Origin: a virus
Strand: one strand, 5' to 3'
Length of the DNA stretch: 46,584 nt
Virus record (IMG/VR): IMGVR_UViG_3300005613_000114
Span: 1-46,584 of that record
Every line of letters begins with the position of its first letter. The first letter of the stretch is position 1. This document shows positions 8,806-46,109 of the stretch, one piece after another. The notes beneath the pieces were generated by a model. The model ran no database searches, had not been told where the DNA came from, and worked only from the letters and a program-made list of their open reading frames with translations. The translations under genes and the position numbers were made by a program.

Positions 8806-8808
8806 ACG

Positions 8809-12665: not shown

Positions 12666-12689
12666 CTATTAATTATACTTGATATTAAC

Positions 12690-14831
12690 TTAAAATAATT
12701 CTGGATGTGATGCTTGATAATATGTATCATCAGGATCAACATTACTCTTGTAGACGTCTAAGGTGGAATAATTTAATACTGGGTATCGAACTAAGAAGTT
12801 TAGAAATACACCAACGGATTTCACTTCTTCCATTAATTCTTTTAAAACCTCTCTTGCTACAGCTGGATCAGTTATATATGGTGCACGCTCTGATCCAAAT
12901 CCGTCAAATACTATGCCTCCACGTCGTCTAATCATTGTTACTGATGATCCCACATCGTGTGTTCTTAGAAAAACATACGCTGGATCAATGCTGATTGTGT
13001 TAGTTGATGGCTTAAAGAAATACTTAACAGGTCCTTCTTCTTTTTCCGTTCCAAAATCAAAAACTAATTGCCCACTTTCATTAGGTATATCATTAGCTTC
13101 AACTAATATATTTCGTTGAGTTACACCTGCTTGTATTGAGGTGGTTAAATTGGTTGTAAAAGATGATAATACGAAATCTGCATCTTCGTCCCAAACATAT
13201 GGTCCAGGTGTCTCTGACTGTAATGTTGAACTTCTAAGAATTACTTTTGTGTTTTCGGTCAACATGCCGATTCTTTCTACTCGTATGGATCCAGCTGCAC
13301 TCGTTGTTGAACCATCATCTCCAGGACTCCAAACTTTGAATGAAGTGGAATCGATTACTTCAGTAATTTCCCAAGTACCATCCAGTGGTACAGATCCTGG
13401 GAAACCAACAGTACCCTCTAATATAGCTGACTCATTGACTAAAAAATTATGTGCGGTAATAGTTGTAACTAATAACTCATTAGATGCACGTGTTACTGAG
13501 GCCACATCGACCTTATTTAATGCAGCTTCTTTTGGTAAATCTGGAGAAATACCAGTTAATGTGTTTCCAGATTTACCAGTGTAAGTAAAATACCCTTGAT
13601 CACTGATTAGTCTACTATTATAGTTATGATTAGCAACAGATGAATCAATTAGTTCTGATTTTATTTGCTTCAATTGTTCAATTAAAATCTTGCCACCAGT
13701 TTCTGGAAAATCTGTAGCATCAACTAAAGTTAATTCAGTATCGCTCACTCTAATAGTAGATAATGAAACTGTACCATTGATATGTGCTGCACCACGGCGA
13801 TTTCGTTTCACTATTGGAGGTGACGGAGGTAATTCAACTATTATCTCTCCAGGCGTAACTTCCCAACTAACAGCTCGTTTATCTCTTGTATGTACTCGTT
13901 CAGTTTCATCATACATGAATTTAACATCTGTGGTACTTGTCTGCGTTAAAGTACCCGCCGTAGCGAATACGTTCCTAAATTGAAAAGAATTATCATTAAT
14001 ATTAACTGATTCAATAGCGAAAGTTCCTTTATTGCCAGCTACATTAATCATAACAATGTCATCAACTTCTATAGAGTTTACTCTAGGATCATCACCACCA
14101 ACATATTGAAATGTAACTAAGTCACCAACTTTAGTGATATTCCATTCAGTGTTTATTCCGTTGCCTGAGTCAGTATTAAAATTATTAAATTGTAAACCAA
14201 TATTTGCTAATCCACCAGTTATACGAATTGATCCTTTAGAACCAATAGTATCCGTGAATATCCTTATATAAGTTTTTTTAGTAATACTGTCATAGTGAGC
14301 AATACCATAGCTTCCAGTAGTTTGACGATTGATAGCTGCAACTATTTCGTCTGCAGTTGCCTCTGCAATATTGGTAAAATCTTTACTATTGAATTGTATT
14401 CGTTCTGTCTTATAAGCATCAACTTCATACTCTAACGTCCAACCATCTTCTAAATAGAAATCTTCAAATGCAATTGTTTGTGTAAAAGATGTTGTTGAAT
14501 CTTTAATGAAAAATAAATCTAATAATTTATCAAATACTAATTTAACTTGTTTAGGATGATAGCTCATTATTGGAATAAAGGTACGAAAGTCTGGATCACG
14601 CATACCAATAAAGCGAGGTCGCTGCACCTTATATTGAGCCCCTAATCGATCTATATAAGGACGTGTTGCTGTCTTTACGAAAAACTGCTTTCGTACATTT
14701 TCAATCAGATCAGCTACTTCCTGATCTGATTCGCCTAGGGCTTCAACTATTGCCTTCCAATTGGGATTTTCTTTACTATTATAGGCTCTAGGGAGAGCTG
14801 AATGAAAACTTTCTACTTTACGCTTTGCCAC
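12690..14831 (-). CDS. Baseplate protein, gpI-like with extra beta-modules
   Basis: A 713-residue protein directly downstream of the baseplate J homologue, where P2-type phages carry gpI. The N-terminus (FHSALPRAYNSKENPNW, VADLIENVRKQFFVKTA, YIDRLGAQYKVQRPR, MRDPDFRTFI) fits the gpI-type pattern in which a short helix is followed by L-x-x-L-G and D-x-x-F/Y-R. P2 gpI is about 180 residues. Here several beta-modules follow, including FNSKDFTNIAEATADEIVAA (also in the J protein) and two H-N-F/H-G-type domains. Start codon is GTG at 14831 with AAGGAAAGG upstream; that ribosome site lies within an HNH remnant. The gpI assignment rests on position and weak pattern. Confidence 0.65.
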   Translation of the reverse strand: MAKRKVESFHSALPRAYNSKENPNWKAIVEALGESDQEVADLIENVRKQFFVKTATRPYIDRLGAQYKVQRPRFIGMRDPDFRTFIPIMSYHPKQVKLVFDKLLDLFFIKDSTTSFTQTIAFEDFYLEDGWTLEYEVDAYKTERIQFNSKDFTNIAEATADEIVAAINRQTTGSYGIAHYDSITKKTYIRIFTDTIGSKGSIRITGGLANIGLQFNNFNTDSGNGINTEWNITKVGDLVTFQYVGGDDPRVNSIEVDDIVMINVAGNKGTFAIESVNINDNSFQFRNVFATAGTLTQTSTTDVKFMYDETERVHTRDKRAVSWEVTPGEIIVELPPSPPIVKRNRRGAAHINGTVSLSTIRVSDTELTLVDATDFPETGGKILIEQLKQIKSELIDSSVANHNYNSRLISDQGYFTYTGKSGNTLTGISPDLPKEAALNKVDVASVTRASNELLVTTITAHNFLVNESAILEGTVGFPGSVPLDGTWEITEVIDSTSFKVWSPGDDGSTTSAAGSIRVERIGMLTENTKVILRSSTLQSETPGPYVWDEDADFVLSSFTTNLTTSIQAGVTQRNILVEANDIPNESGQLVFDFGTEKEEGPVKYFFKPSTNTISIDPAYVFLRTHDVGSSVTMIRRRGGIVFDGFGSERAPYITDPAVAREVLKELMEEVKSVGVFLNFLVRYPVLNYSTLDVYKSNVDPDDTYYQASHPELF

Positions 14832-14908: not shown

Positions 14909-17900
14909 CTATGCAATACTGATATCTGAGCTTTGTATAAAAGCTTTTTCGTTATCTGCAATACTAATTCTTTCAGTAGACGGTACCGGTGTAACAAATG
15001 TCACAGCTGCAACGCCATCGATTGTCATAACCTTCACAATAATATCTGATAATATTACATCATCACTTACACCTAAAGTATTAATGTGATTAATAACTGC
15101 TGATTTAATTTCATTTGTTATTTCACTTAAATTAACACCATCTTTAGTAGTTACATCAATTACAACACTAACCTGTCTAATCAGTGGTGGTAATATTTCA
15201 ATTAGACTACCAACTGCTTTTCTACCTGAGTAAGTTGCTTCATCTGGTTCAAATCCGTCTACAGTTCGCTGTATTGTTCTTAATAGTCCAGTATAGTATA
15301 AATAGCCGTCAACACCTGCCACAACATCAGAAGAGTATCCTATTTTCCCCAATGAATTGATTGAAGTTTTATTGGTTTGGTTCCATTTATATGATCTATT
15401 ACCTGGTGTTAAATACACGGCTCTTCTCTCATTATTGAAATCATCAGTCACAACATATGAGATTTTTTTAATAGATGTAAATCTATTATTATCGCCTTCG
15501 TTTATATGAAACGATGTATTATCTATATTCATTTTCTTATTTGATTCAGTTAATCCATTAGTATTAACAACTCTTATAAAAGGACTAAAACTTGTTGGAT
15601 CAATCCCAATATGTGTAATTGCAAAAGTTCCGCTATTCCCAGCACTAAACCAGTCATTATCTATTAAACTAGATACATATAGTGAATCTCCAACTCTTAC
15701 TGCATCACCTTCATAAATACGTATATCCGATGACGTATGTAGGAATTGACCTGCTCCAACATGATTGTATTGATCAAATGAAACACCAACAGATGTACCA
15801 GAAGTACCTTGATATAATCCACCTAATGTTACAGAGGTTGCTGTTGTAAAATCACCTGTATTGCTACCGAGAACTTGTAAATATATTACGTCTTCATCGT
15901 CTCGTTTTTTAACCCATGTTCCAACGCTTAAATTTCTAAAAGACCCAGCAGAACCAGTAATAACATTAGCGTTACTTGTCCATGTTACTGCAGTTAGCTC
16001 ATCATTAAAAGGAAGAATGGTATCAAGCTCTTCCTGAGTAGAAGTACTTTGAAATAATATAGCATCGTTCTCTATACCTAGAATTCTAAATTCACCATTA
16101 TTTAAACTTTTAAAAGTTTGACCACTTATGACTAATAAATCATCCACTGCTGCACCACAATCAACAAATCTTGGAGAATCACCTGCAACCGCACGCAATC
16201 TAAACATATCTTTATATCCAAGACTTTCTATTTTATATTGAGTACGAGTTTTTGTAGATTTTAATATATATCCACCTGTGTACGCACCAATTGCAGCAGA
16301 ACTTTCGTATCTAAAACTAAAAGCTGAATCTACTTGATTGACTATACCTGTAGTAGCTATCGCGTTATTATCAACTAATGTAAAGCTGTCTCCTACATTT
16401 AGATTATGTTCTATTAATGAGTTAAAAATTGCACCAACTGGATCGCCAGAAATTGACACAACAATTTGATTTACCCATGTCGGTGCTGAATGAGATGGTT
16501 TCCACTCAATGATAGGAGTTGGATAAAAGTTCACAAAGCCATTTAAGCCAATAGCAGTTGATGCCATTGCTTTGCCATCTGGATTAACAACATCAAAAAA
16601 GTGATTAGCTGCATCAACATTAATTATGGTCATTTTAGAGAATTGATCATCACCAGTGCTACCAATTTTATTAGTGTTATCCCATGCGACATCTTCACTA
16701 TATGCTGCTACAATATCACCAGCTTGCACACGAAACAGTGTCTCAGTCCCTGCAAAACTATGTGTCCAACGCCAAACAGGTTTTCCACTATATAACCCTG
16801 AAACATCAGTAATTGTAATTGTAGTTGTATCATCGAAATTTGTTGTTTTTGCATTGTATCTATATTCAAATGAAGAGCTTGTTGTTTCAACTACATCAAT
16901 ACTGTCGTCACTTGTCAGCCTATCAAAACGTTGAACTAAACCATCATTTTTTAGCAACACATGGTCGTCAATTGTTAATGTGTTTGGAAAAGCAGATGTT
17001 TTAACTGTAAGTATATCTTCGCCATTTACATTACTAACATCTGAGTCACCAAAAATAAAAAATTGTGTTTCATTTGCTCGTCCACCAACAACCTCAATAG
17101 CTCCTTGCGAACCTAATAGTGTTGATTTAATTTGTATTTTTCTCAAATTATCACTAAAATCAATGTTAGATACAATTTCTAATTGAGACAATGCTTTATG
17201 CGACATATGGTGTTTTAAATTATCTAGAGTAATTGGCACAAGTTTAAATAATTCACCTAATTCTGTTTCATCATGTACAGGTGTTGTATCCATTTGATAA
17301 ATACTAGGATCTGGTGAAGCTGTTGGTAATACCAATGACGTCTTTAAATCAAAATTGTATGCAGGGGCAACATCATTTCTAAAAGTCTTAACATAGCTAA
17401 TTCCATCATATAATTGAATATAATTATCTATACCAGCTGTGTGACCATGCGCAACACCTGTTACATTTTCTTCACGCGTAGCTTTAACTATGTTTCCAGT
17501 ATTGATTTCTACAGCTCTTAATAAGTCACTTGTATTAACTTTAAGTGCTATTTCTGCAGTAGTTGTTTCAGCTATTGGGAAGATATTAACTGATGTTGCA
17601 ATGCTTACTTGCTCATGTGTCGAATCTACACCTTCAATTAAGGTAGTTATTGACCATGCATTCCCTAAATTCCCATTAACAGCATTAATCGCAGTACCAA
17701 CATTTGCATCTGTACAAATAATTGTATCTGTTCCACTCACTGGACATGAAAAATCAATCAATGCATTTAATTCAAAAGCTAATTTACCAGCTACATCAAT
17801 TGCTGTAATTTCATTAGATATATCTATTTTTAGTAGAGTTCTACCAGATGAAGGTGGTTGAACTACATCAGCACCAGTGGTATCCATATATATTCTATAT

Positions 17901-20900
17901 GCTGTTCCACTAGCAGCATTAATATCAAAATATTCACCATCATTAGTATTAACTAGTGCGTCAGCAATAAACTGAGTTTGCTCTGCAATACCAGCATTAG
18001 TAGCTACACCATCAGCATTATACACGTCAATAGTATTATTTGCTGGAACAAAGTCTATAATATGGAATGATCCACGGTTAGCTGCTGAAAAACCGCTATC
18101 ATTTGCAATTGCTAGTACATCATCACTTTCAATATCTATGCCAAAAGTCACAGTATTAGGAAATGTGTATCGGAATATGTTACCACCTAAATCTGTAACG
18201 CTAACCTGATCTCCTGCTTGTATGCCAGCACTTCGAGCGACTCCCGAAGCAAATGTGTAAGTTACAAGGCTGTATTCTGGTGTATTTACGTGTGAAATTG
18301 TTGATGCTCTATTAGGGAATAATGGATGTTCGATTTGAAAACGAAATTTCTCGCCAACTGGTCCGTATGTGTTAGCACGAAACATTAATGATGGCTCAAC
18401 ACTTGGGGCACTGTATCCGCCAGATATATACCAATTTCTAGCCATAAACCATACAGCATAATTATCGAAATTAGTGTTTCGTTGATTCACATCTGTTCCC
18501 CAAACTGATAATGTGCTAAAATCAGTATTAGATTCTCCCTCTGCATCGTCTGCAGAAAATGATGATCCAGATGGGATAGCTCCAGATCCAGATCCTAATC
18601 CATTAGATCCAGAGTTAACTCGACCTGTTCTAGAAAAACTCATATCAACTGTTTTAGCAACAGAATCGTCATCTAAAATAATAACCATATTGTCTTCAGA
18701 TGATATTTCAAAGTTTTTAACTACATGGTATTCGTCTCCGAGTCGATAATCATTTAATAGTTTAGGTAACTCAGTGTTACTTGTTTTAACTGTATTAGTA
18801 CTGCTATCAATAACTTTAGGATCTCTAAATATTGTTTTATTACCGCCAGATGTAATGTGGATTGAATCTTCGTAAGTAACCTTAGTGTCAATAGGATCAC
18901 CACCAGTTTCTTCTAGAATTTCACCATATGATGGATCAGTATACGGCTTATGATTAGCTGTTAAACTACCTTTTAAATCTGTATATGTAAAGCGATCTAA
19001 CCATGCATTAGTTGGTTGAGTTCTTTCAAATGTTGTAAAACCATCTGTTTCTGGTCGTTTATTTGCGACATGTGATTGATTACCTTCTTGTAAACTCCCA
19101 TTAGTTGCAAATACATTGACAGCTGATCCGATAGAAACTGGAGTAGTAATACTTCCACCTTCTTCAGTTGTTGATGTGATACGAATTGAGTTAGTTCTAT
19201 AAATAGAGGCTGCTAAACCCTTGATGTTAGCATTTAATGAGTCTACAATCTCTGATAAAGTTGCAGCAGCAGGTGTCGCAAGCGACGATGTATCCCAAAT
19301 TTGAGGATATACATCTGAAGCAAAAGCTTGTAAATCAGCTGAATCTAATACACTATATGATCCCACTACCATTCCGCTTGCATTGTAATTTATTACTTCA
19401 ATAAAAGTATCTGTTCCAGCGACGGTGTGTGATCCTTTAGTGACGATCTTAAATAATCCACTTGATGTTTCATCAATCCAAGCTTCTATACCTGTTCCAG
19501 CGTTATGTCCACGATTTGCAATATATAAATAATCTCTAGGCTGTATATTTTTAAAGGTTGATAACGTGCTCGACATTATCCGCATGACACTGTTTCCCTC
19601 ATCGGATAGTGTGATCGTACTGCCAATTGGCGGATTAACAGTGCGAGGTACAACTTCTGTACCGTCTACGCATATGATAGTTTTTGCTGCACGGCCATTA
19701 CTGTCATTAGAGACATTAAAAGCCCCTGATGCACTAGCTGCAGAAACAACAGAGCCTTTTGTATCACTAGATCCTGCCGTAATAACATCACCAGCTACAA
19801 TATCAGATAAAATTTGTAAATTACCATTTTGACGATTTAACTTAAACTTAGAATCTTGACCAGTTGAAGCTAATGACACACCAGAAAACATCTTATCTAC
19901 TAGCGAACCACTTAGTATTTCTAATGAAGATTCAGTACCTTCTTTATTGGATGTTATAAGTAATTTATCAGAAGATGTGGCTGTTGCTGTAATACCTGCA
20001 AACTTGCTATTAAAAGCAGTAACATAATCTGATAAAGTTAAGGATGCAAAACTTTGTCCAGCGAAATCTGTTGTATTAAAAGTTTGATCTTGTGGCGGCG
20101 TGCCATCAACTGAAATAACAATATTTCCACTAGCAATAATATTCCATGACGAAAACTCAATACTAGTTAATGAGGCTGCTTTTTCTTTTTCAGTTAATAA
20201 ACTGTTATTTTGATATAGCTTAATATGTGAAAATTCATTAATAGGGAATTTAAGTTCAGTATTAGCAGTACTATCTCCAATAACTTGTATAGTTTCTACA
20301 TCATGCGCTAATGGATAAATTAATAATTTAGTACTATTTGCAGTTAATCTGCATCTAAATAAATCTGCTTTATCATTAATAGCTGTAACTACTTCTACTA
20401 AGGTAGCTGAAGATATATTACTGAAATCCGTAGAATTAAATGTAATACTTTCTTCAACACTGTCAATTAGTACTTTAAATGTCATACCCTCAGTTAATTC
20501 ATATGGTGCTTCTGCAACATTTATAGCTTGTGGACGTGGAATTGGAAAATTAGCTAATTGTAAAAACTCTTCGTTACCTGTAGCTTCTTTAATTAGAGCA
20601 TCAACTGATTGACCTGCGAAAGAAGGCTCAAATCCTGATCCATCATCTACATAAATAATTGATGGATCACCAATAGCAACTGGTTCAGTTATTACGGCTG
20701 ATGCAACTCGTTTACCTTCTGTAGGATCAGATAATCCATCAATAGCTGTTAAAATAGATGCTTTAGTTCCTCTAGCTAAACTGCTTGTATATGATTTTAT
20801 TCTTTCTCGTAAATCTATATCAGTTTCTATATCACTACCAGATGTGAAAGCTGTAGTATTAGTTGCTGTTGCAGTAGGGAATGGTAGACTTTGAAATTTA

Positions 20901-34541: not shown

Positions 34542-37184
34542 TTATGCCTCACTAACTTTTCTTGATAATGTGATATCAGCGAGAACGAAATCAATACCTT
34601 CAACAAGTTTTACTATTACAGAAATATTGATTGTAGTTCCTACGATACTCACAACCAACGATTTAAACCCATTAGGAGCATCGTCTGATGTTACTGTTAT
34701 ACCTTGAGCTAAGTAGTTAGCTAAGATTGACTCTGCGGTTGATCTAACTTCAGCAGCACTAGCTGTGTTCTTAGTTCCAACATAGATCTTTTCCATTTGA
34801 TCTCTAAAGTCATATGCTAAAACATCAGCCGCATAGATGATGTTACCTCTATTCCATACCCAGTTTCCGTCTTTACCGTAAGTTGTATTATCAACAACTA
34901 CTTTAAATCCACCAGATTGAGGATTTTCAAGGAATGTTAACCCTTGTTGAATTGCTTGCTCAAATTGAGTACGTGGATTAAAATCAACTACAATATCTTC
35001 TTCAGCTGTTCTCATTGGTTGAGAAGTATGTCTAATTCCAGCAACATTCATATACTTATTAGTTAATGGTGTTCCAATTGGTGAACCACCTCTTGCTCCA
35101 GCAAGATTACAGGCTAGCGCCCATGGCTGATACCATTTAATGTTTCCTTGCGAGTCAACATTTTTAGTATCTTGTATAGTTAATTGAACACGTCCAAAAG
35201 CTAAATCATTAGAAACATCTAAAGAAGAATCTCCGCTAGTATAGCCAGTAGAAGTCGTAGAATAAAATCCCTTAAATGATAAATATCCTTGTCGCTCTGA
35301 ACGACTCTTGGTTGTAGCTGTTTTACTTAGATGAGATTTAACACCTTGATGTATAGCTGCAATACTATATGATGAATTAACATCAGTTAGACCATCAGCA
35401 ATATCATCAGTAGCATCTCTAGAAAATAGAGGTACTATAGCATTCAATCGGATTCCTTCAAATTCTAGTAATCCATTGGTTATATCAGCACCACTAGTTG
35501 CACCAGTACTACCAACAACTGAGTTTAAGAACGTTTCAGCTTGAACTTCAGGAAGACCAATAAGAGTTGGACTTAATGATACTTCATCATGAGAAATTAT
35601 AGATGATTCAATAGTAAAATCAACAAATTCAGAGTAATCTTTCTTAATTCGCAATGGCTTATTATCAATTGTATGCGCTGAAACAGCTGACACAGGATCT
35701 AAACTACTTGCAGACATCTGATTATAAAGACTTGATGATAATGCAAAAGACCAATCAGCTTTCACATTCAAATCATTGACTAATTCAATTAAAGTTGAAT
35801 ATGTGCTGATTTTATAATCACTATTTACTGCGTCTTCACTTAATCTAAAGAGATCATTTTCATGATCAATTGTAACGGTTGCAGAAGTAGCAGAACCAGT
35901 ATAACCACCGGTTAACACAACGTTTCCACCAATAACATCTTCTTCAGCGAGTAATAGTTGCCTTTGTTCCAACATTAAATTAGCAGCTGATTCAACGCTA
36001 GAGAATGAAATACCCTTTACTAACCCCAATACAGCTAAATCACCAACATTTAATTCTGCTAATTCAAGGCTTTTTCCATAACCATTTTGATGAGCTGTTA
36101 AATCACTATCAACTGTAAGAACTAAAAAGTCATTAGTATTAAAAGATGCAACCGCGCCAGTTAATTGGCCGTTGATTTCAGCTAATAATTTAGCTTGACT
36201 ATCATGGTCACTTTCAAGGCCTGAAAGAGTAATTACCTGTTGTGCAGAACCACTAATGTAAATACCAAAAGTTAAATTATTATATGGAGTTCCATCACCT
36301 GGATCAAGATCTGCACCGTCAACATTTAGCACTACGATAAAAGCACCAGCTGCAGTTTCATCTGCATTATGGACTGAAGCGTCTGCACAAGCACCCGCGT
36401 TATCTTGTGTGAAAATAATATCAACGCCACCAGCTGGGTCAGTAACACTAACACCTGTAATAGAGCTATTAACTGCTGCAAATATTTTCGCAGCAACTTC
36501 AATAGCTGTATCAGTACTTAAGATACTAACTTGAATGGCACTAGAAGCTGCAAGATGTGCAGCACCTGTTGGAGCTGTACCGTTAGCATCTATATCAAGC
36601 CATACAGAGTAATCTAATCCTGCTTGATTCTTGATAATGAAATGATCAGCTTGAGTATGTATAGCACCAGAAGCGCATGTGATTTGCTCTATTTGAGCAA
36701 CTGCTGGAACAGCTGTAAAAACTATTGGAGATGTCCCAATAACTTCAGGAGCAACTTCAGCTACATGGTCACAAGAATAAACTATTCTATTACCTTGCTC
36801 ACCGTAAACTAACGCTGTTAATGTTCCATAACTATTTGCTAAATTTAAAGCTGCACGTGTAGATGCATTTGTCTTATAGATATAGACAGCTTGAGCACCT
36901 GATGGAATTGCACCATCACTTGCAGGAGCAAATAGGAAGTTACATGCATCAACTATGTTACCTGATCCATATTTTTCAATGATTTCAGGCACTTGTGATG
37001 CTGTAAAAAAATTCTGTGAAATATCTACTTCTAAAGAACCTGGTGTTCCACGTGTAGATTCGCCCAATATACCAATAAGACCAGTAGGACCAAGTGGAAA
37101 AGCTCCACCAAGATCAATGTTTATCTTAGAATACGCCCCTGGTTTGTATATTGTGGCTCCGTTAAAGCTTACATTGATTGCCAT
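34542..37184 (-). CDS. Tail sheath protein (880 residues, with inserted beta-module)
   Basis: An 880-residue contractile sheath. The N-terminus (KPGAYSKINIDLGGAFP, TGLIGILGESTRGTPGS) and C-terminus (HTSQPMRTAEEDIVVDFN, VVDNTTYGKDGNWVWNR, EGIDFVLADITLSRKVSEA) match the sheath pattern. Sheaths are commonly 400-700 residues. The excess here includes a module at about residues 180-275 (DYSVWLDIDANGTAPTG, TDTAIEVAAKIFAAVNS) also found in a fibre and in the J protein. Such insertions decorate the sheath surface. The 76-bp upstream gap has an extended -10 and a TATAAATA box. The ATG at 37184 has AAGGAGAGC upstream. A strong virion product is expected. Confidence 0.88.
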   Translation of the reverse strand: MAINVSFNGATIYKPGAYSKINIDLGGAFPLGPTGLIGILGESTRGTPGSLEVDISQNFFTASQVPEIIEKYGSGNIVDACNFLFAPASDGAIPSGAQAVYIYKTNASTRAALNLANSYGTLTALVYGEQGNRIVYSCDHVAEVAPEVIGTSPIVFTAVPAVAQIEQITCASGAIHTQADHFIIKNQAGLDYSVWLDIDANGTAPTGAAHLAASSAIQVSILSTDTAIEVAAKIFAAVNSSITGVSVTDPAGGVDIIFTQDNAGACADASVHNADETAAGAFIVVLNVDGADLDPGDGTPYNNLTFGIYISGSAQQVITLSGLESDHDSQAKLLAEINGQLTGAVASFNTNDFLVLTVDSDLTAHQNGYGKSLELAELNVGDLAVLGLVKGISFSSVESAANLMLEQRQLLLAEEDVIGGNVVLTGGYTGSATSATVTIDHENDLFRLSEDAVNSDYKISTYSTLIELVNDLNVKADWSFALSSSLYNQMSASSLDPVSAVSAHTIDNKPLRIKKDYSEFVDFTIESSIISHDEVSLSPTLIGLPEVQAETFLNSVVGSTGATSGADITNGLLEFEGIRLNAIVPLFSRDATDDIADGLTDVNSSYSIAAIHQGVKSHLSKTATTKSRSERQGYLSFKGFYSTTSTGYTSGDSSLDVSNDLAFGRVQLTIQDTKNVDSQGNIKWYQPWALACNLAGARGGSPIGTPLTNKYMNVAGIRHTSQPMRTAEEDIVVDFNPRTQFEQAIQQGLTFLENPQSGGFKVVVDNTTYGKDGNWVWNRGNIIYAADVLAYDFRDQMEKIYVGTKNTASAAEVRSTAESILANYLAQGITVTSDDAPNGFKSLVVSIVGTTINISVIVKLVEGIDFVLADITLSRKVSEA

Positions 37185-38835: not shown

Positions 38836-40332
38836 CTACTTCTTTATTACGCGAGCTCTCATGTCATTAAGAAAGTTACCTTTGTCATGATTATTCCACT
38901 CTTCGCCAAATACTATCTTAATTCTTCCATTGGGTTCGATAGTAATTTGTGGTTTAGGTAAGTAAAAGTATTCGTTATTGTAGACTTTATCAGGATTAAC
39001 TGGAGAGGCTGAATACGCTTCAACAGTTTTCGGTCCTTGATTCATTGAATCAACTTTTGATTGTAATTCTCGTAGTTTAGCTTCAATGGTATTAATCTCA
39101 TTACTAGCCATATCACATAGTTTATTATGTTGTTCAGCCATATCGTGGTTAAGTTTCTCTATTTTATCAAATAGAGTCATTAATCTAGCTTCTACTTGCT
39201 GGATATCTACAGCGTTACCGCTACGAATTTCAACACGCATGGTTTCCATTTCGTCATATATATTAGCGAGATTGTGTCTTTTGTAGTTATCCACTAATTC
39301 ATTGATACCACCAGATATAGCATCATCGGATAAATGATCATCTGTTAGCAATTCTAAATCCATATTGTCTTCTGGGAGATACCACTCAAATACACTCATT
39401 AAATCTGCGGTTAATGCAGGTAGAGATTTATGAGAAAACTGATGAACTAATTTTTGTCCATCATATACACGTCCAGAATATATATCATTTAAGTGTTTTC
39501 GAATATTTAATGTATATCCATCAATCTTTACTTCTTTAAAATCTTCATCATTCATTCCAATGACAGCATCTCTTAACATTCTAAAAGCACCATTACCCAC
39601 CAATCTAAGAGCATCACCATGACTTACATCAAATACAGCGTCTCTACCATCAGGTCCTCTAAGGACATTCTTTTGTAGTTTTTCAACAGCTATTAAGTGT
39701 TTTAAAGAGCTCTTCTTTAACATATTGTGTTGAGAGTTTAGATATAGATTCAACCCTTCTTTGCAGCATCCTCTTAATCGTATTTCATCTGCTAATAAAT
39801 GAGGTTCTATCCATTTCCAGTTTTTAACTTCATTAGAATTCTTAGGTTTACCTTTAAAATCAGTGCATACAAAGCACTTAGAATCATTCATTTGAGATCG
39901 CATCATTCCAAGTTCATGTAGTTCACCACAGACTATACCAGCTTCTTCTCTAGTCTCTCGATGTGCAGCTTCCATATAATCTTCACCTGGATCAACGTGT
40001 CCACCAGGAGTGGTGAGTTGACCAGATTCAGTGCATTCGCCTACTAAAATTCGTCCCTTATTATCTAATACAATAACTCCGGCACCTTGTCCACGGTAAA
40101 ATTGTTCAAAAGCTTTTTTGATTTTCTTTTTCTTTTTCTTGTCGCTCCAAGTACCGCCTTTACCTGGTCCAGCTTTACCTTTATCTTCTTCAACACCTTT
40201 ACCGGGTTTGCTGTATTTGCCAGCAATAGAGGCTGGTGGTCCACTATCACCACGAGCGGTTTTATTTTTATTCCCCTCATGGAGAATCGCCATCATCATG
40301 CGCCATTGCCTTTTACTTGTTGCCTGCGGCAT
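38836..40332 (-). CDS. Virion-cluster protein with N-terminal-half Nudix domain
   Basis: A 498-residue protein. Residues ~80-190 hold a Nudix hydrolase domain. The box is G111-x5-E117-x7-R125-E126-x2-E129-E130-x-G132-I133, with all acidic metal-binding residues present, so catalysis on a nucleotide-type substrate (X linked to nucleoside diphosphate) is plausible. The first 75 residues are a Gly/Lys-rich linker (KAGPGKGGTWSDKKKKKK). The C-terminal ~300 residues contain coiled-coil segments (MTLFDKIEKLNHDMAEQHN) and a final beta part. It sits inside a head-tail joining region, where a free hydrolase is not expected. It may be carried in the particle. Substrate unknown. Confidence 0.8.
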   Translation of the reverse strand: MPQATSKRQWRMMMAILHEGNKNKTARGDSGPPASIAGKYSKPGKGVEEDKGKAGPGKGGTWSDKKKKKKIKKAFEQFYRGQGAGVIVLDNKGRILVGECTESGQLTTPGGHVDPGEDYMEAAHRETREEAGIVCGELHELGMMRSQMNDSKCFVCTDFKGKPKNSNEVKNWKWIEPHLLADEIRLRGCCKEGLNLYLNSQHNMLKKSSLKHLIAVEKLQKNVLRGPDGRDAVFDVSHGDALRLVGNGAFRMLRDAVIGMNDEDFKEVKIDGYTLNIRKHLNDIYSGRVYDGQKLVHQFSHKSLPALTADLMSVFEWYLPEDNMDLELLTDDHLSDDAISGGINELVDNYKRHNLANIYDEMETMRVEIRSGNAVDIQQVEARLMTLFDKIEKLNHDMAEQHNKLCDMASNEINTIEAKLRELQSKVDSMNQGPKTVEAYSASPVNPDKVYNNEYFYLPKPQITIEPNGRIKIVFGEEWNNHDKGNFLNDMRARVIKK

Positions 40333-40382: not shown

Positions 40383-41012
40383 CTACTCAGAGTATTTATT
40401 ACCTTTCTTTAAATTATCTTTAGCCCATAATGGCTGTAAGTTATTTAAATCCCAGCTCTTTTTAAAATCTTTATCTGCAATAGACTTATAATTAAATAAG
40501 CTGTCTGGCTTGATGTGATCTATATGCCAGCCGTGTAAGCCATAGTTATCCCAGGACATACCGTCGTGGAACTGAGATTCTAAGTGCTCTTTTAAGTCAA
40601 TAATAGAGTAACCTAAGATTTCACTAGTACGCTGATTGTCTTTAGATATTTTTCTACTCTTTAATTTTTGATTTATCAAAGTTTTAATATTGTGTTTTAA
40701 TTTTCTTTGCATTGGCGTGTTATGAGTGATATATGTACGCCATGAATTATGTTCTACTTTTTGGCGAATTACTCTTTCTTTACGATTTAAAGCTGATATC
40801 TTCATTTTTCTTTTTGTACTTTCCTTAAGTGTCTTTCCTTTAAGATACTTTTCAGCTATATTTTGATTTGCACACATAATACATAGTTTATTTGCTTTAT
40901 TTTTATCTTTATATCCACGATCAGCGTTACATTGATTACATGTTGCTCTATATCTTGGTATTTTTCTACCAGATTTTAAAACAACATATTTCTTATCATC
41001 TAAGTCAATCAC
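40383..41012 (-). CDS. HNH endonuclease with NUMOD3-type motif
   Basis: A 209-residue protein. N-terminal Cys pairs (CNQCN, CIMC) suggest a zinc finger. LKGKTLKESTKRKMKISAL fits a NUMOD3 DNA-binding helix. The HNH core is GWHIDHIKPDSLFNYKS and the end is NLQPLWAKDNLKKGNKYSE, as in the 12126-12665 enzyme. It starts with GTG at 41012, overlapping the connector-like gene's stop by one base, with AAGGAAG upstream. It separates that gene from the Nudix-domain gene. Homing-type behaviour is inferred from family and placement. Confidence 0.9.
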   Translation of the reverse strand: MIDLDDKKYVVLKSGRKIPRYRATCNQCNADRGYKDKNKANKLCIMCANQNIAEKYLKGKTLKESTKRKMKISALNRKERVIRQKVEHNSWRTYITHNTPMQRKLKHNIKTLINQKLKSRKISKDNQRTSEILGYSIIDLKEHLESQFHDGMSWDNYGLHGWHIDHIKPDSLFNYKSIADKDFKKSWDLNNLQPLWAKDNLKKGNKYSE

Positions 41013-41812
41013 TACTCTTCCTTCTGCAATAAGAAGTCTCGCTTGACAAGTACTTGTTGCGGTAATCGTCTAGCTGTTTTTTGACCGGTAGCTATATCGT
41101 AATCCTGTGTTACTCTCATCTCGTGAAGAACATTTTGTACAGTATACACAGGATTAGCATTGTATACTATCGAAAACACTTGACCTAAATCATTCGCTGA
41201 ATCATAATAAGGCTTAATTAACCAATGAATTCCACCATCTACTATTTCATAATCAGTGCCTAATTGATATTCAGTTAATACACCATTTACAACTGCAGTT
41301 ATGTATTCAATATTAACTATTGGATATCTTAATTTTTGAATATCATTAGTAGTTGGTTCATACTTTAATAAATCATATAGTCGAACTTCAAAATCTGGAC
41401 AATAGAATTGATCAAAAGTGTTGAAATCCGCTTGTAATCCATTTGGGTATTCTGCTGGAAAAGTGATAACTGCTGTACCTAACTCCCAAACACCTTGCAC
41501 TTCAAACATTTTCTCTAATGAATTAGAAGTAAAAACTCCCCATACTTCTCGTTCATCAGTTGTTCCGGGAAAAGTCTCTTTATATAGCATCTGTGAATTA
41601 TCACATAACTGACAATTTGGCGCATGATTATTCTCATCTAACCCCTTCATATTGGGGCAAGGCATTGCAACTCTATGTATAAAGCGTATCCCACGATTCT
41701 GAATTAATTCGTCCCATGATGCTGCTTTAATGCTGGGATCAGGTAGTATCCCTGGCATGGGAGATGGGGTTGATCTAGTTGATTTTGGATACTGTTTATT
41801 TGGTTTTTTCAC
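41012..41812 (-). CDS. Connector-like virion protein with cysteine cluster
   Basis: A 266-residue protein, first visible gene of the minus-strand block. Start codon is GTG at 41812 with AGGAGCAAAT upstream. A cysteine cluster (AMPCPNMKG then HAPNCQLCDNSQML) could bind a metal. The rest is beta-rich (TFPAEYPNGLQADFNTFDQF, IVNIEYITAVVNGVLTEYQL, VDGGIHWLIKPYYDS) and ends in a helical basic tail. In this operon position a head-completion or connector protein is expected. No named family is recognised, so only the position supports the role. Confidence 0.6.
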   Translation of the reverse strand: MKKPNKQYPKSTRSTPSPMPGILPDPSIKAASWDELIQNRGIRFIHRVAMPCPNMKGLDENNHAPNCQLCDNSQMLYKETFPGTTDEREVWGVFTSNSLEKMFEVQGVWELGTAVITFPAEYPNGLQADFNTFDQFYCPDFEVRLYDLLKYEPTTNDIQKLRYPIVNIEYITAVVNGVLTEYQLGTDYEIVDGGIHWLIKPYYDSANDLGQVFSIVYNANPVYTVQNVLHEMRVTQDYDIATGQKTARRLPQQVLVKRDFLLQKEE

Positions 41813-41926: not shown

Positions 41927-42238
41927 ATGAAAAATCCACCATCTAAAAAAGACATACTTAAAAGTATTATAGATAATGATGGCGATTGTGGCAATATACG
42001 TGATGAATACGAACGAGCATATCATAAAGATTTATGTCCTTTTGACACTTTTAAAAAACGAGATCAGTATAATTATCTTGGTTGCTATGAGGCAGTATTA
42101 AGCAATAGACGATTAACCTGGCAAGAAGCACATCAAGAATATAAAAAGATAGCAATACAATTATTAATGGATATACTCTTAGAAGAAGAGATTTTTGGAT
42201 GTGAAATTGAAAAAACAAAAAACGACTCAGATGAATAA
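41927..42238 (+). CDS. Small cysteine-containing protein, 103 residues
   Basis: First gene of the plus-strand small-gene operon; ATG 41927 with AAAGG seven bases upstream. The N-terminus (SKKDILKSIIDNDGDCGNI, then DLCPFDTFKK) shares the I-x-x-x-x-G-D-C ... C-P-F pattern with the next gene. Such small phage proteins with paired Cys and CPF are seen in several large phages and may bind zinc. The rest is helical (LTWQEAHQEYKKIAIQLL). Ends with an acidic tail overlapping the next ATG by eight bases. Function unknown; likely early or accessory. Confidence 0.75.
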   Translation: MKNPPSKKDILKSIIDNDGDCGNIRDEYERAYHKDLCPFDTFKKRDQYNYLGCYEAVLSNRRLTWQEAHQEYKKIAIQLLMDILLEEEIFGCEIEKTKNDSDE

Positions 42239-42479
42239 ACAGCAGTTTATTAAAACATTAGAGCAGATAGTAGAGCAGAATGGAGATTGTCTTCATCATT
42301 CGTTGTGTGAGAAATGCCCTTTTAAAAGTAAGTGTCTACCTACATTTATTAAATCAACAGGGACGATGACAAAGACTGAACGATTTTCATTAGCATTAAA
42401 TACATTAACTAATGAAGTACTACTGGAGACATACGATGACGACCACGACGATTTCTTTTCAAACAGAAACCGGTGTTAA
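42231..42479 (+). CDS. Small zinc-finger-like protein, 82 residues
   Basis: An 82-residue protein. ATG 42231 overlaps the previous stop by eight bases; an earlier in-frame start at 42195 exists but would lie in the previous gene. The motif is ENGDC-like (EQNGDCLHHSLCEKCPFKS followed by KC), a likely four-cysteine zinc site, matching the first gene. Then TFIKSTGTMTKTERFSLAL helix and an acidic Asp-rich end. Its 3' end overlaps the next gene by 44 bp, so expression is coupled. Function unknown. Confidence 0.72.
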   Translation: MNKQQFIKTLEQIVEQNGDCLHHSLCEKCPFKSKCLPTFIKSTGTMTKTERFSLALNTLTNEVLLETYDDDHDDFFSNRNRC

Positions 42480-42636
42480 TCTACATTGTGAAATAACATA
42501 TGATGATAAAGAAGATAATCCAACGGATATGAAGTATAAAATACAGTTATTATCTTTATTTTGTAAGCTATGCACAAAAGAACTATATCAAGAATATAAT
42601 GCCTTATATGGGGTTAATAATGAAGCAACCATGTAA
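42436..42636 (+). CDS. Mini-protein of the repeated L-x-K-L family
   Basis: A 66-residue protein; ATG 42436 is preferred because GGAG lies nine bases before it (an earlier in-frame ATG at 42412 lacks one). It starts with threonines (MTTTTISFQTETGVNLHCEI), followed by an acidic loop and the helix YKIQLLSLFCKLCTKELYQ. The block TGVNLHCEIT ... IQLLSLFCKL lines up with SGAHVYVEEI ... NLIQLFSKLDIV of the gene at 43667-43996, so these two appear paralogous. Part of the overlapping operon. Function unknown. Confidence 0.7.
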   Translation: MTTTTISFQTETGVNLHCEITYDDKEDNPTDMKYKIQLLSLFCKLCTKELYQEYNALYGVNNEATM

Positions 42637-42793
42637 TAAATTAACGTTTACCAACAATATGTGGAAGTACTTTACATTATTGAGTCTTTTAAAGACCTTT
42701 GAATTGTTAAGAATCACTAACAGAAATATAGTTCTACATTATTATAATGATAGTTATGGAGATTTCTCACATGCAAAATGGTTCGAACGATAA
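42620..42793 (+). CDS. Mini-protein, 57 residues
   Basis: A 57-residue protein from ATG 42620, overlapping the previous gene by 17 bp, with GGGG upstream. The segment MWKYFTLLSLLKTFELLRI is an amphipathic or hydrophobic helix similar in pattern to that of the neighbouring mini-proteins. It is followed by LHYYNDSYGDFSHAKWFER. A single short membrane-associated helix is possible but not clear. Coupled to the neighbours by overlap. Function unknown. Confidence 0.62.
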   Translation: MKQPCNKLTFTNNMWKYFTLLSLLKTFELLRITNRNIVLHYYNDSYGDFSHAKWFER

Positions 42794-42995
42794 AATAAAA
42801 TCTTTAAACCTTGGATTAACCTGGCACAGCAACTGTTGGAATGACGCTAATGAGTCTATTTTAATTATTATGGCTAAACTAGGGATTGAAGTTTATTGTG
42901 GTCCTAGTAACCCTAAAATGGGGGATGCTTACTACGATACTATAAAAGACTGTGCCTTTATATATGATGGCACTAATTGGATGGAGGCATTTTAA
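42771..42995 (+). CDS. Small protein, 74 residues
   Basis: A 74-residue protein. ATG 42771 has GGAG ~10 bases upstream; it overlaps the previous gene's end by 23 bp. The sequence has LTWHSNCWNDANESIL, IIMAKLGIEVYCGPSN (an L-x-K-L-x-I-like hit) and DTIKDCAFIYDGTNWMEAF. Its stop overlaps the next ATG by one base. No known family; no signal or membrane segment. Confidence 0.65.
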   Translation: MQNGSNDKIKSLNLGLTWHSNCWNDANESILIIMAKLGIEVYCGPSNPKMGDAYYDTIKDCAFIYDGTNWMEAF

Positions 42996-43141
42996 TGAAG
43001 CAAAAACAATGGTTTGAATCACGGGGATTATTTCTTTATGTGGCATTAGAACGAATACTAATGAAATTAGGTGTCTTCGATTATGGTAATGAACCTGATT
43101 TAGAACTTGTTAAAAAATGGATTTTTAAATTTAATCATTAA
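42995..43141 (+). CDS. Mini-protein of the repeated family, 48 residues
   Basis: A 48-residue open frame from ATG 42995, overlapping the previous stop by one base. It reads WFESRGLFLYVALERILMKL then GVFDYGNEPDLELVKKW. It carries the family pattern: aromatic patch, then I-L-x-K-L-G-V, then D-L-x-L-V-x-K-W. It is shorter than 60 codons but fits the family of its neighbours. Coding status rests on the family match, position and coupling. Confidence 0.68.
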   Translation: MKQKQWFESRGLFLYVALERILMKLGVFDYGNEPDLELVKKWIFKFNH

Positions 43142-43180
43142 TACTTAATTGAGAGTAAAAAGAACAGATAAAGAGTTAAT

Positions 43181-43336
43181 ATGATAGTGAAACATATTTA
43201 TAAAGTCGGTGCTTATTTATCATTTGAGTTCATACTGTATAAATTACGCATTATTAAAACACATAGCATTACAAGCTTACGACATGTGGCAAAATGGACT
43301 GAAAAACATGCAAACATAGATCAAAATAAAGGTTAA
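43181..43336 (+). CDS. Mini-protein of the repeated family, 51 residues
   Basis: A 51-residue open frame from ATG 43181 with AAGAG upstream, 39 bp after the previous gene. It contains IYKVGAYLSFEFILYKLRII then THSITSLRHVAKWTEKHA. It is clearly similar to the next gene (VYKIGIYFFFEDILHKLGII ... VVKWVEKC): both have Y-K-x-G-x-Y then F-E-x-I-L-x-K-L-x-I-I and V-x-K-W-x-E-K. This is the best pair for showing the family. Function unknown. Confidence 0.75.
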   Translation: MIVKHIYKVGAYLSFEFILYKLRIIKTHSITSLRHVAKWTEKHANIDQNKG

Positions 43337-43340
43337 CACA

Positions 43341-43517
43341 ATGTTAAAAGACGTTTATAAAATAGGTATTTATTTCTTTTTTGAAGATATATTACATAAA
43401 TTAGGCATTATTACAGTACATGAAATTGCAGAGTATCAAGAAGTAGTAAAATGGGTTGAAAAATGTACAAATAATGAATTTAAAAGATATCGACATGACA
43501 TCAAACGGTTTTCCTAA
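43341..43517 (+). CDS. Mini-protein of the repeated family, 58 residues
   Basis: A 58-residue open frame from ATG 43341, five bases after the previous stop. It reads MLKDVYKIGIYFFFEDILHK then LGIITVHEIAEYQEVVKWVE and ends in a basic tail (RYRHDIKRFS). It is a close paralogue of the preceding gene. It overlaps the next gene's start. A soluble two-helix protein is likely; no known function. Confidence 0.75.
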   Translation: MLKDVYKIGIYFFFEDILHKLGIITVHEIAEYQEVVKWVEKCTNNEFKRYRHDIKRFS

Positions 43518-43665
43518 AATGGGTAGTTACTTCTTACTAGAAGCCGTGTTGCGTAAACTTGATATTGTACAGTACCACACAGCTCCAGATTTACATCTTG
43601 TGATACGGTGGGGTAATAAATACGCAGACAGATATATAGAAGAGGCGACTGATAATGGGAGTTAA
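43495..43665 (+). CDS. Mini-protein of the repeated family, 56 residues
   Basis: A 56-residue version starting at ATG 43495; starts at 43474 (ATG) or 43456 (TTG) would add 7 or 13 residues. Comparison with the paralogues favours 43495, since ~12 residues then precede the helix YFLLEAVLRKLDIVQYH. It continues with APDLHLVIRWGNKYADR. It overlaps the preceding gene by 23 bp in another frame. The ribosome site is weak at any of these starts. Function unknown. Confidence 0.68.
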   Translation: MTSNGFPKMGSYFLLEAVLRKLDIVQYHTAPDLHLVIRWGNKYADRYIEEATDNGS

Positions 43666-43666
43666 T

Positions 43667-43996
43667 ATGGTGACTGCTCATAATACATATGATTACTATG
43701 AGGAAGATTCAGGTGCACATGTATATGTAGAGGAAATACTCCTTTATCCAGGTAGCGAAGATTGGAACTGGCATCGACATAGATTCAATTTGATACAACT
43801 TTTTAGTAAGTTGGATATTGTGCATTTTGAAGAAGCATTACCACTCTGCACTCATACGGTGTTTAATGGGAACTGTGTTGAGATGGCATATGCTACTTGG
43901 GATGCTCGTTACAATATAACAGTATCATTACCACATAACGATGGCATCCAACGCATTACTGCTTATCCTGGTAAAGTCGTTGTCACAGAGTTATAA
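43667..43996 (+). CDS. Larger family-related protein, 109 residues
   Basis: ATG 43667 is preferred: GGGAG lies six bases before it, whereas the upstream ATG at 43655 overlaps the preceding stop. The protein (NTYDYYEEDSGAHVYVEEIL, NLIQLFSKLDIVHFEEAL) has an N-terminal beta part, the family helix, then a C-terminal beta part (YNITVSLPHNDGIQRITAYP). The central helix matches the L-x-K-L-D-I-V pattern of the 43495 gene. It could be the full-length version from which short copies derive. Function unknown. Confidence 0.7.
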   Translation: MVTAHNTYDYYEEDSGAHVYVEEILLYPGSEDWNWHRHRFNLIQLFSKLDIVHFEEALPLCTHTVFNGNCVEMAYATWDARYNITVSLPHNDGIQRITAYPGKVVVTEL

Positions 43997-43999
43997 ACC

Positions 44000-44011
44000 T
44001 CCGGCGCCGGA
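44000..44011. repeat. GC-rich perfect palindrome (TCCGGCGCCGGA)
   Basis: A 12-bp perfect palindrome, very GC-rich against an AT-rich background, four bases after the stop of the 109-residue gene. Downstream is a direct repeat of GAAAAAG followed by CCC (GAAAAAGCCCC and GAAAAAGGCCC). It could be a hairpin or a protein site. Confidence 0.7.
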
Positions 44012-44042
44012 AAAAGCCCCGTTTCGAAAAAGGCCCTAAATA

Positions 44043-44213
44043 ATGTCAATACGCGATAACATAAGCGAATACAGCATATTCATAGATAGATGGGAATCAT
44101 ATAACAATTTCATCACTATCCTATATAAAATCAAGATCGTAAAAGCAACTGATAGAATTAATTGGATGGGTGATAAAATGGTCCATAAATACTTGGGGTA
44201 CACATATGTCTAA
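44043..44213 (+). CDS. Mini-protein of the repeated family, 56 residues
   Basis: A 56-residue open frame from ATG 44043. It contains FIDRWESYNNFITILYKIKI then VKATDRINWMGDKMVHKYL. It carries the F-x-x-I-L-x-K-I-x-I-V helix of the family, followed by a W-M-x-D-K segment like the W-K of the paralogues. A weak AAGG lies about nine bases upstream. It overlaps the next gene's start. Function unknown. Confidence 0.65.
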   Translation: MSIRDNISEYSIFIDRWESYNNFITILYKIKIVKATDRINWMGDKMVHKYLGYTYV

Positions 44214-44394
44214 AAAATCACAAACTCTGTTAATGGACCGTATAAACGTAACACATGATCTATTATGCACCATATATAAGCTTTTCCATCATAAGCCACC
44301 ACGATACGATGTCTTGGGTGATCTAGGTATCGATCAACTACTGGCCAACAACTTTCTACAACGATTTAAACCAACTACACGGGAAGATATATGA
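44206..44394 (+). CDS. Mini-protein, 62 residues
   Basis: A 62-residue protein from ATG 44206 with GGGG upstream; an earlier in-frame start at 44170 would lie inside the preceding gene. It reads INVTHDLLCTIYKLFHHKP then YDVLGDLGIDQLLANNF. The L-L-x-T-I-Y-K-L helix fits the family pattern weakly. It pairs with the next gene (FRFIQVLCKVIHNQQPHID then GITDAQIINFL): both end in a G-I-x-D-x-x-x-x-N-F-L segment. Overlaps the next gene by the ATGA form. Confidence 0.65.
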   Translation: MSKKSQTLLMDRINVTHDLLCTIYKLFHHKPPRYDVLGDLGIDQLLANNFLQRFKPTTREDI

Positions 44395-44570
44395 CTCCTA
44401 AATCAATCCTATATTCAACACACGTAACCTTCCGTTTTATACAGGTTCTCTGCAAGGTGATCCACAACCAACAACCGCATATCGACTGCAATACGCAAAT
44501 CGGCATCACAGACGCACAAATAATCAACTTTCTTAACGTCTACGCAACAACCCACACTACTAAATCATAA
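44391..44570 (+). CDS. Mini-protein, 59 residues
   Basis: A 59-residue frame from ATG 44391, with GGGAAG upstream and ATGA overlap with the previous stop. It reads HVTFRFIQVLCKVIHNQQP then IGITDAQIINFLNVYATT. It is a paralogue of the preceding protein. Codons are C-richer (ACC, AAC, ATC) than in the genes to the left. It is the last gene before a 600-bp non-coding stretch. Function unknown. Confidence 0.65.
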   Translation: MTPKSILYSTHVTFRFIQVLCKVIHNQQPHIDCNTQIGITDAQIINFLNVYATTHTTKS

Positions 44571-44840
44571 AAAACATAGAATCTTGCGCGTGCAATGCTG
44601 ATCTATAAGCAGACTACCCATCCGGGACGGATGATGAAATGCTTTGTAACCAGCAAGAAACGCGCAGGTCTTCACCCTTAAAGATCCCAAGCCCCAAATC
44701 TAGAGAACTCAGGATGGCACTTCATGGAAGTACCGCGTTTAGCATCGAGATATGGCCGAGTCAGCAATGATCTTGGGTGTGAAGCTGTGTAGTCCGTTGT
44801 GTGGCCGGATATTGTGTATGGGTTTATCTAGGGGTGAGGA

Positions 44841-44900
44841 ATATAGTGAATTATATTTTATATATTTTGGGGTACATGTACCTTGGTGTTTTCACTATAT
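44841..44900. repeat. Nested inverted repeat
   Basis: ATATAGTGAA (44841-44850) and TTCACTATAT (44891-44900) are perfect inverted repeats, 40 bp apart. Between them is the palindrome GGTACATGTACC (44871-44882), preceded by G so as to form GGGGTACATGTACC. Confidence 0.75.
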
Positions 44901-45040
44901 AGGGGTATTGAGACATATGCTGATCTGTTGTTCTTAGAAAATAAAAGATTCGGTAGAAGAGATGGAAATGATGATTAAAGATTATTAAGGTATGGTTAGT
45001 ATTGTGATTAAATCGTGATTAAGTTGTGAGCCAGATTGTT

Positions 45041-45058
45041 GTGGGTACGTGTACCCAC
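45041..45058. repeat. Perfect palindrome GTGGGTACGTGTACCCAC
   Basis: Seven to eight base pairs closed by CGTG or GT. It shares GGGTACRTGTACC with the palindrome at 44871-44882. It lies ~125 bp before the 72-residue gene and could be an operator or an RNA hairpin. Confidence 0.72.
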
Positions 45059-45087
45059 CAGCAGAAAGTAAGGTTCAACCCTACCGA

Positions 45088-45147
45088 GGCTACCGGGCCC
45101 GTTATAGCAGACTCTGGGGTGATATAAACCGACTCGATAGTTACTTA
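45088..45147 (+). repeat. Intergenic repeat element, divergent copy 1
   Basis: Contains GCTA...TAGC pairing in GCTACCGGGCCCGTTATAGC, then AGCAGACTC and, after TGATATAAACC, GACTCGATAGTTACTTA, which matches GACTCGATAGCTACTTA of copy 3 at 46326-46343. It precedes the 72-residue gene. More divergent than copies 2 and 3. Confidence 0.6.
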
Positions 45148-45181
45148 CAACAAAACAACTTAAAAACTTTGGAGGTTGATT

Positions 45182-45728: not shown

Positions 45729-46109
45729 ATGAGTGTATTAACACAGAAGCAAGCAGTATATGACTTGATTGATTTAATCAAAGTTATTGATCCTAATAAA
45801 CAAGTGATGCTTACCCACATGGAAACTGAATGGATAGTAAAGAATTTAGTGATCCAGTTCAATAAAGGTATGATAAGTAACAAACCGGATGTAGATGATC
45901 TTAGTGAGTATTGTGGGAGGTTACTAGGTAATTATTTAAAGAAGGACTCGAGGTTGAATGGTGGGAGTACTTTCTATGCAGGGTTATTCAAAGAAACAGT
46001 TGATCCTACTTGTCCGTCAATGAATACCCCGATCTGTGAGTGTGGTGCTAAGCATACTGCCTTTCCTGACCACCACTCTAGTTACTGTCCTTTAAATAAG
46101 GGGAAATAA
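45729..46109 (+). CDS. Small protein with C-terminal zinc motif, 126 residues
   Basis: ATG 45729 is chosen because AAGGAGA lies just before it; an in-frame start at 45702 would add nine residues. The body is helical (TQKQAVYDLIDLIKVID, IVKNLVIQFNKGMISN). The C-terminus has CECGAKHTAFPDHHSSYCP, with two Cys, His-His and a last Cys that could bind zinc. The last gene of the window has the same end (CECGAKHTSNHHYHSDWCP). Function unknown. Confidence 0.78.
   Translation: MSVLTQKQAVYDLIDLIKVIDPNKQVMLTHMETEWIVKNLVIQFNKGMISNKPDVDDLSEYCGRLLGNYLKKDSRLNGGSTFYAGLFKETVDPTCPSMNTPICECGAKHTAFPDHHSSYCPLNKGK

Follow-up and report, generated by a model that had tools for sequence, protein, structure and literature searches.

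Small genes sharing a short helix form a tandem array at a conserved locus in a group of contractile-tailed phages

Results

The array and its genes

The DNA analysed here (hereafter, the window) is IMG/VR virus record IMGVR_UViG_3300005613_000114, 46,584 bases in length. An initial annotation of its sequence had described, at 42436-44570, a tandem array of ten short genes, at least seven of which appeared to share a helix pattern. We find that this array is real and extends to related phages, and that one helix of about 11 residues recurs through the arrays, in proteins whose remainders are often unrelated.

The window encodes a contractile tail, with an 880-amino-acid (aa) sheath (34542-37184, phrog_279) and a baseplate J-like protein among its products. 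Its large structural genes are on the minus strand and end at 41812, and the array is on the plus strand, transcribed away from them. It holds 11 open reading frames (ORFs), termed g3 to g13, rather than the ten first counted, all of them on the plus strand, started by ATG and 48-109 aa long. Seven fall below 60 codons (48, 51, 56, 56, 57, 58 and 59 aa), as the initial annotation had pointed out for several, and the tight packing that it described is likewise seen: from g1 to g13 (41927-44570) the successive spacings are -8, -44, -17, -23, -1, +39, +4, -23, +1, +46, -8 and -4 bases, with overlaps of up to 44 bases and gaps of up to 46. Called genes span 89% of the plus strand versus 22% of the minus strand. 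The features of the locus are listed here with the basis of identification in brackets (HMM, hidden Markov model).

41927..42238, plus strand: g1, 103 aa, Cys-containing, opens the operon, has ILLEEE (ORF)
42231..42479, plus strand: g2, 82 aa, Cys-rich (CxxxxxCxxCPFxxxC), marks the array start (tblastn)
42436..42636, plus strand: g3, 66 aa, weak member, QLLSLFCKL (HMM)
42620..42793, plus strand: g4, 57 aa, member, SLLKTFELLRI (HMM)
42771..42995, plus strand: g5, 74 aa, helix SILIIMAKLGI, then a virion-protein-like hairpin, GDAYYDTIKDCAFIYDGTNW
42995..43141, plus strand: g6, 48 aa, core paralog, ALERILMKLGV ... VKKW (shuffle tests, HMM)
43181..43336, plus strand: g7, 51 aa, core paralog, FEFILYKLRII ... 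VAKW (shuffle tests, HMM)
43341..43517, plus strand: g8, 58 aa, core paralog, FEDILHKLGII ... VVKW (shuffle tests, HMM)
43495..43665, plus strand: g9, 56 aa, core paralog, LEAVLRKLDIV ... VIRW (shuffle tests, HMM)
43667..43996, plus strand: g10, 109 aa, motif NLIQLFSKLDIV within a longer unrelated protein (HMM, motif search)
44043..44213, plus strand: g11, 56 aa, member, NFITILYKIKIV (HMM)
44206..44394, plus strand: g12, 62 aa, divergent member, DLLCTIYKLFH, pairs with g13
44391..44570, plus strand: g13, 59 aa, divergent member, RFIQVLCKVIH, pairs with g12
45729..46109, plus strand: 126-aa homolog of the 'QKEAV ... NNWLRKD..LNGG' protein (downstream gene of the relatives)

The same locus in related phages

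Relatives were retrieved with the sheath and the gene at 41012-41812 as bait. The nearest named phages reached through these two genes, Myxococcus phage Mx1 and the SPO1-type Bacillus phages, are remote; the 41012-41812 product matches SPO1 gp6.4 (26% identity) and phrog_1004. The closest relative is IMGVR_UViG_3300027985_000872 (166.6 kb, sheath 71%; L026, L035, L037 and L041, L-numbers being our handles for sequences of related phages), in which approximately 28-30 consecutive mini-ORFs (L026 1445-6107) come after the g1 and g2 homologs. Homologs of g1 stand 5' of the array in related phages (L026 876-1247 and others), and g2 was matched by tblastn in 8 of 9 related records, with E values of 1e-9 to 1e-22. 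In every other related phage that was read beyond the locus, an array of 5-14 ORFs is found at the same place (L045, L046, L047, L048/L049, L050-L052/L065, L053, L054, L055, L056, L058, L060, L061 and L063), so that the search for counterparts proposed in the initial annotation gave a positive answer. These arrays precede a homolog of the QKEAV protein wherever the contig extends that far.

A more distant group (L027-L032) has only 2-4 motif ORFs, recognised by eye and with weak HMM support, and the stretches of SPO1 and Mx1 near the homologous genes hold no array. This distribution indicates a lineage-specific expansion, the array being an expanding trait of this phage group. The closest relative also contains some 15-20 dispersed copies of the motif besides its main array, 22 of its 375 non-array small ORFs reaching a score where shuffles give 3.0. 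At the DNA level the array had no match among phage records, and a search for the host through bacterial genomes found no relative.

A helix shared across otherwise dissimilar proteins

A de novo motif search run without phage labels returned one helix common to 91 array proteins from seven phages, with the consensus x-[LFI]-[LFI]-x-[TLM]-[LMF]-x-[KR]-[LF]-[GED]-[IVL] over approximately 11 residues and a log-likelihood of 556, as compared to 188-205 in eight shuffled sets. In leave-one-out HMM comparisons within the window, 7 of the 11 ORFs (g6-g11 and g13) beat all 300 of their own shuffles, in keeping with the 'at least seven' first proposed, and g3, g4, g5 and g12 did not. An HMM trained on six other phages (80 array proteins), with the window proteins excluded, gave 10 of the 11 ORFs a score that no more than 2% of their own shuffles reached, and the top six of all 542 window ORFs by its score were array ORFs. 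The best window match was g11 (13.2 bits); g4 scored 10.3 bits with 0/500 shuffles as good, g3 scored 3.3 bits with 1.8% of shuffles as good (5.3% in the leave-one-out comparison), and the score of g12 was reached by 1.2% of shuffles. The helix of g5 was found by the motif search, yet it is not significant by HMM (12% of shuffles).

Similar results were obtained in the relatives, where the numbers of ORFs exceeding at least 98% of their own shuffles in leave-one-out comparisons were 24/27 for L026, 13/14 for L053, 12/13 for L054, 5/5 for L048, 6/10 for L046 and 4/11 for L045 (window, 7/11). When the arrays were aligned separately and compared profile to profile, 18 of 21 pairs scored above all 126 shuffled comparisons (maximum 11.45). 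The window profile scored 19.0 against L026 (a profile of 27 mini-ORFs), 20.3 against L045, 17.9 against L054 and 17.1 against L046, and among 40 sets of real small proteins from outside the arrays the highest score against the window was 14.1; the window comparisons with L053 and L048 were not significant. For those four arrays, the profile comparison found similarity to the window beyond both shuffled sequences and real small proteins. A profile built from the close relative alone had g9 as its top window match.

Part of this resemblance reflects duplication. All pairs among g6-g9 were significant in pairwise shuffle tests (p 6e-4 to 3e-11), as were g7-g11 (p=0.0013) and g12-g13 (p=2e-4), the remaining pairs of window ORFs being weak or non-significant. 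Direct DNA repeats in the array are negligible, and the resemblance is therefore at the protein level. The sequences argue clearly for g6-g9 as paralogs by duplication, and g12 and g13 are likely to share such an origin; serial duplication, as first suggested, is thus supported in part, most members sharing only the helix of about 10 residues. The V-x-K-W region that had been described after the helix corresponds to a [FY][VI]x[RK][WHY]G element of the close relative, and is absent from many arrays.

An ordinary lineage-specific paralog family would explain a good deal of this: a two-helix hairpin protein, for example one acting in counter-defence or host inhibition, would have been serially duplicated, its copies diverging to different targets, with the helix as the core of the fold or as a homo- or hetero-oligomer interface. 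The plain paralogs g6-g9 and g12/g13 fit such a family, as does the L026 array, which retains both the helix and the [FY][VI]x[RK][WHY]G element. A helical hairpin is also predicted; the structural check suggested for the array, made on g8 with AlphaFold2, gave helices at residues 3-20 and 29-57 at modest confidence (mean predicted local distance difference test score 77.7, predicted template modelling score 0.38), and a fold search in a viral library returned no significant match to it. We nonetheless consider this explanation unlikely, though a serious one, in view of where the helix occurs. L053, L054 and L045 share little besides the helix, which is found at very different positions; in these arrays and in L046 scarcely anything aligns outside it. 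The helix also stands at the end of transmembrane proteins (L026 13293, L026 14043, L041 1560), terminates the protein at L052 6799-7026 after a Ser/Glu-rich low-complexity linker, and is present in two copies in L054_3261. Its distance ranges from 2 to 45 residues from the N-terminus and from 1 to 76 from the C-terminus. A family of about 115 aa in the close relative carries it together with an N-terminal three-strand part (model pLDDT 85), and a fold search with this beta-strand family (116 aa) against the PDB found no significant match. The description 'paralogous mini-proteins' is accordingly too simple for proteins with such unrelated remainders. In L048_2013, L053_1977 and L054_2570, array proteins from three different phages, a common N-terminal F-x-G-x-x-I-x-x-P-G-x-x-G stretch is followed by the helix.

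Copies of the motif are more alike within than between phages (0/500 label permutations reach the difference), each set having its own flavour: T-L-x-R-L-x-L in L053, L-L-x-x-L-x-V in L054 and M/T-L-x-K-L-x-I in L026. The most conserved Leu in L026 is written with five codons (CTA5 CTC3 TTA7 CTG3 TTG5), which argues that conservation of the motif is old and acts at the protein level.

Coding and turnover of the array

Seven orthologous mini-ORFs (37-87 aa) compared between L052 and L061 by a simple Nei-Gojobori count had ratios of nonsynonymous to synonymous substitution (dN/dS) of 0.10-0.30, which indicates that the array mini-ORFs are real genes. Being under purifying selection in these two phages, the orthologs speak against diversifying selection as the form of the 'diversifying use' first suggested. 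A Shine-Dalgarno-like site precedes 54% of the starts in the window and 36% of those in L026, as compared to 6% of the other ATGs of the L026 array. Codon usage gives weak support to the called frame in g3 and in g5-g10, and none in g4 and g11-g13.

The codon usage of several window ORFs, not clearly coding-like, and the mostly non-significant individual pairs are what would be seen if the array were an artefact, made up of spurious short ORFs that encode amphipathic helices by chance, or of functionless decaying duplicates. Such an artefact is highly improbable given the dN/dS values, the enrichment of Shine-Dalgarno-like sites at starts, the conservation of the locus across many phages, and a motif that greatly exceeds what shuffled sequences give and also exceeds real small proteins from outside the arrays.

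Two deletions set apart the near-identical strains L052 and L065: one of 74 bp lies shortly before the array, and one of 84 bp within it, through which one motif is lost and the start of the next gene removed. These deletions are direct evidence of array turnover. The diversity of the arrays seems to stem from gene gain, loss and turnover, not from diversifying selection within genes.

Known families and known systems

Consistent with the initial view that no such family had been described, a Pfam search of the array proteins gave nothing near the cut-off, no PADLOC anti-phage defence family was found at E<=1 for ten array proteins, and the PHROG matches were isolated and weak, that of the helix module being g8 to phrog_11750 alone (E 0.0012, 1/20 members). 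Literature searches, whose coverage left out most subscription journals, found no description of such a layout. Rfam, promoter and terminator scans of the array locus gave nothing above chance.

Clusters of small, fast-changing phage genes are known, as are short shared signals on phage proteins, and both are precedents in principle. Like the array, the host takeover module of SPO1 is a myovirus gene cluster made up of accessory genes, most of them small, and the same phage has, in gp6.4, a distant homolog of the gene beside the array. The module differs in lying in the terminal repeat and in not being known as a set of motif-sharing paralogs, and there is no array beside gp6.4. The six-phage HMM reached at most 4.1 bits in SPO1 1-14000, scanned for relatives of the takeover genes 37-60, and nothing beyond 6.4 bits in the SPO1 stretches covered, shuffles reaching 6.0; in Mx1 it gave one weak match of 10.6 bits, on the strand opposite the annotated genes.

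One product of the SPO1 module, the small host-takeover protein Gp53, binds ClpC in an adaptor-like manner (PMC6873191). As in bacterial Clp adaptors, its small size goes together with docking onto a shared machine, which it is able to redirect (PMC6873191). Gp53 differs from the array proteins in being encoded by a single gene, at 25 kDa, without an array and without sequence match to them. With this precedent in a distantly related phage (PMC6873191), the array members might themselves be protease adaptors or decoys, their helix recruiting an AAA+ protease of the host (Clp or Lon type), with the choice of the protein to be degraded or protected left to the variable part. A modular helix joined to a variable part, with membrane-anchored versions included, would suit such a role. 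Protease binding is conjectural, and in the parts of SPO1 that were covered, takeover module included, the HMM gave no score that rose over the shuffled background; we think the proposal decidedly unlikely.

The internal proteins of phage T4 are small, variable and otherwise unrelated proteins with one short capsid-targeting peptide, which stands at the N-terminus and is cut off by the prohead protease. They are like the array proteins in being small, variable and joined by a single short peptide signal, and they suggest that the array members might be internal proteins of the head, ejected together with the DNA, and the helix their capsid-targeting signal. In favour of this, the array is next to structural genes, and residues 45-73 of g5 (a GDxYYD..YDGtnW stretch) match the virion structural hairpin phrog_20787 (E 1.9e-4), a match limited to the C-terminal part of the protein. 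In contrast to the T4 peptide, the helix may occur anywhere in the chain, often internally or near the extreme C-terminus, and this position lowers the capsid-targeting explanation in our estimate. No shared cleavage site was seen in the aligned arrays, as judged by eye, and transcription of the array leads away from the structural genes. Taken together, we find this explanation improbable.

Neighbouring genes and other features

In the closest relative, 38 of 227 small proteins (60-170 aa) have an ILLGE/ILLEE-type motif in their last 12 residues; such ends occur in 1.5% of shuffles, at 0.4% in mid-protein and in 1 of 78 larger proteins. In the window, g1 and g2 hold the related strings ILLEEE and VLLE, though not at the extreme end. 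Cys-rich proteins of the g1/g2 type (C...C..CP....C) are a repeated family in the close relative, mostly ending in ILLGE/ILLEE, with copies at 41927-42479 of the window and at L026 8652-9821, 11969, 13478, 14214 and 16804-19465.

Downstream of the array, 44571-45181 comprises approximately 600 bases without a convincing gene or an Rfam match. The 126-aa QKEAV-type protein beyond it had no Pfam, PHROG or phage-record match; the 'QKEAV...NNWLRKD..LNGG..Y..KNPGSR' protein is itself duplicated in several phages (L052 3663, 4693 and 6074; L041 4139). Near the arrays, on the reverse strand of the locus, L026 15532-16152 and L046 14684-15265 encode lipoprotein-like products with collagen-like G-x-N/D-G repeats.

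Among the structural genes, 38836-40332 encodes a 498-aa protein with a NUDIX domain (Pfam E 7.7e-17), the NUDIX part of which also matches a portal-labelled PHROG. A 209-aa HNH-like ORF at 40383-41012 looks like an inserted homing endonuclease, because its flanking genes are directly adjacent in the close relative (L005 6013-6822 and 6864-8369).

Discussion

Our best reading, held tentatively and at somewhat less than an even chance, is that these loci are microprotein arrays whose members share a docking helix for one common partner. Each small protein would carry one amphipathic helix of about 11 residues, followed in some arrays by a second helix with the [FY][VI]x[RK][WHY]G element. The helix would dock every member onto the same partner, made by the phage or by its host, and the unrelated remainder, be it a short peptide, a transmembrane anchor, a small beta domain or a virion-like hairpin, would set the client or the location. 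Members would be rapidly gained and lost as the opposing target shifts. The likeness of helices within each phage is as expected under this reading, since each set would track its own partner. The array would probably serve host takeover or counter-defence, a plausible role given its divergence from the structural genes, the small size and fast turnover of its members, and the SPO1 precedent (PMC6873191).

Several points weigh against the docking reading. The common partner is our inference, as are the way in which members would act as adaptors, when they would be made and what they would do; expression of the array is predicted. Likeness within a phage would also result if genes had recently been duplicated, or had undergone gene conversion, in each genome, and hetero-oligomers, in which the helices bind one another, would produce it too. 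The core of the window (g6-g9) and L026 share two helices, which places them nearer to ordinary paralogs than to carriers of a bare motif, and the model of g8 shows a simple hairpin of two helices.

A bolder form of the proposal, which we hold to be doubtful, is a tag system: one helix on up to approximately 45 largely unrelated microproteins per genome would load exchangeable effectors onto a single hub, and a second, C-terminal tag, ILLGE/ILLEE, would mark a further large set of small proteins of that genome. The ankyrin/PRANC F-box host-range families of poxviruses, with many paralogs that vary in the part binding the client and keep a single docking end unchanged, offer an analogy only, as virus, host and machinery are unrelated and no homology is implied. 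If the tag proposal is true, the phage proteome would be organised by short docking tags, of a kind that we have not found described.

Tiny genes of unassigned role are numerous in most phage genomes and are dropped by annotation pipelines, and the helix groups many such genes, from many phage lineages, into one testable class. If one partner were found, the role of the whole set would follow. Should the docking reading be true, the accessory proteins of these phages would be turned over fast and the part by which they attach would be kept constant.

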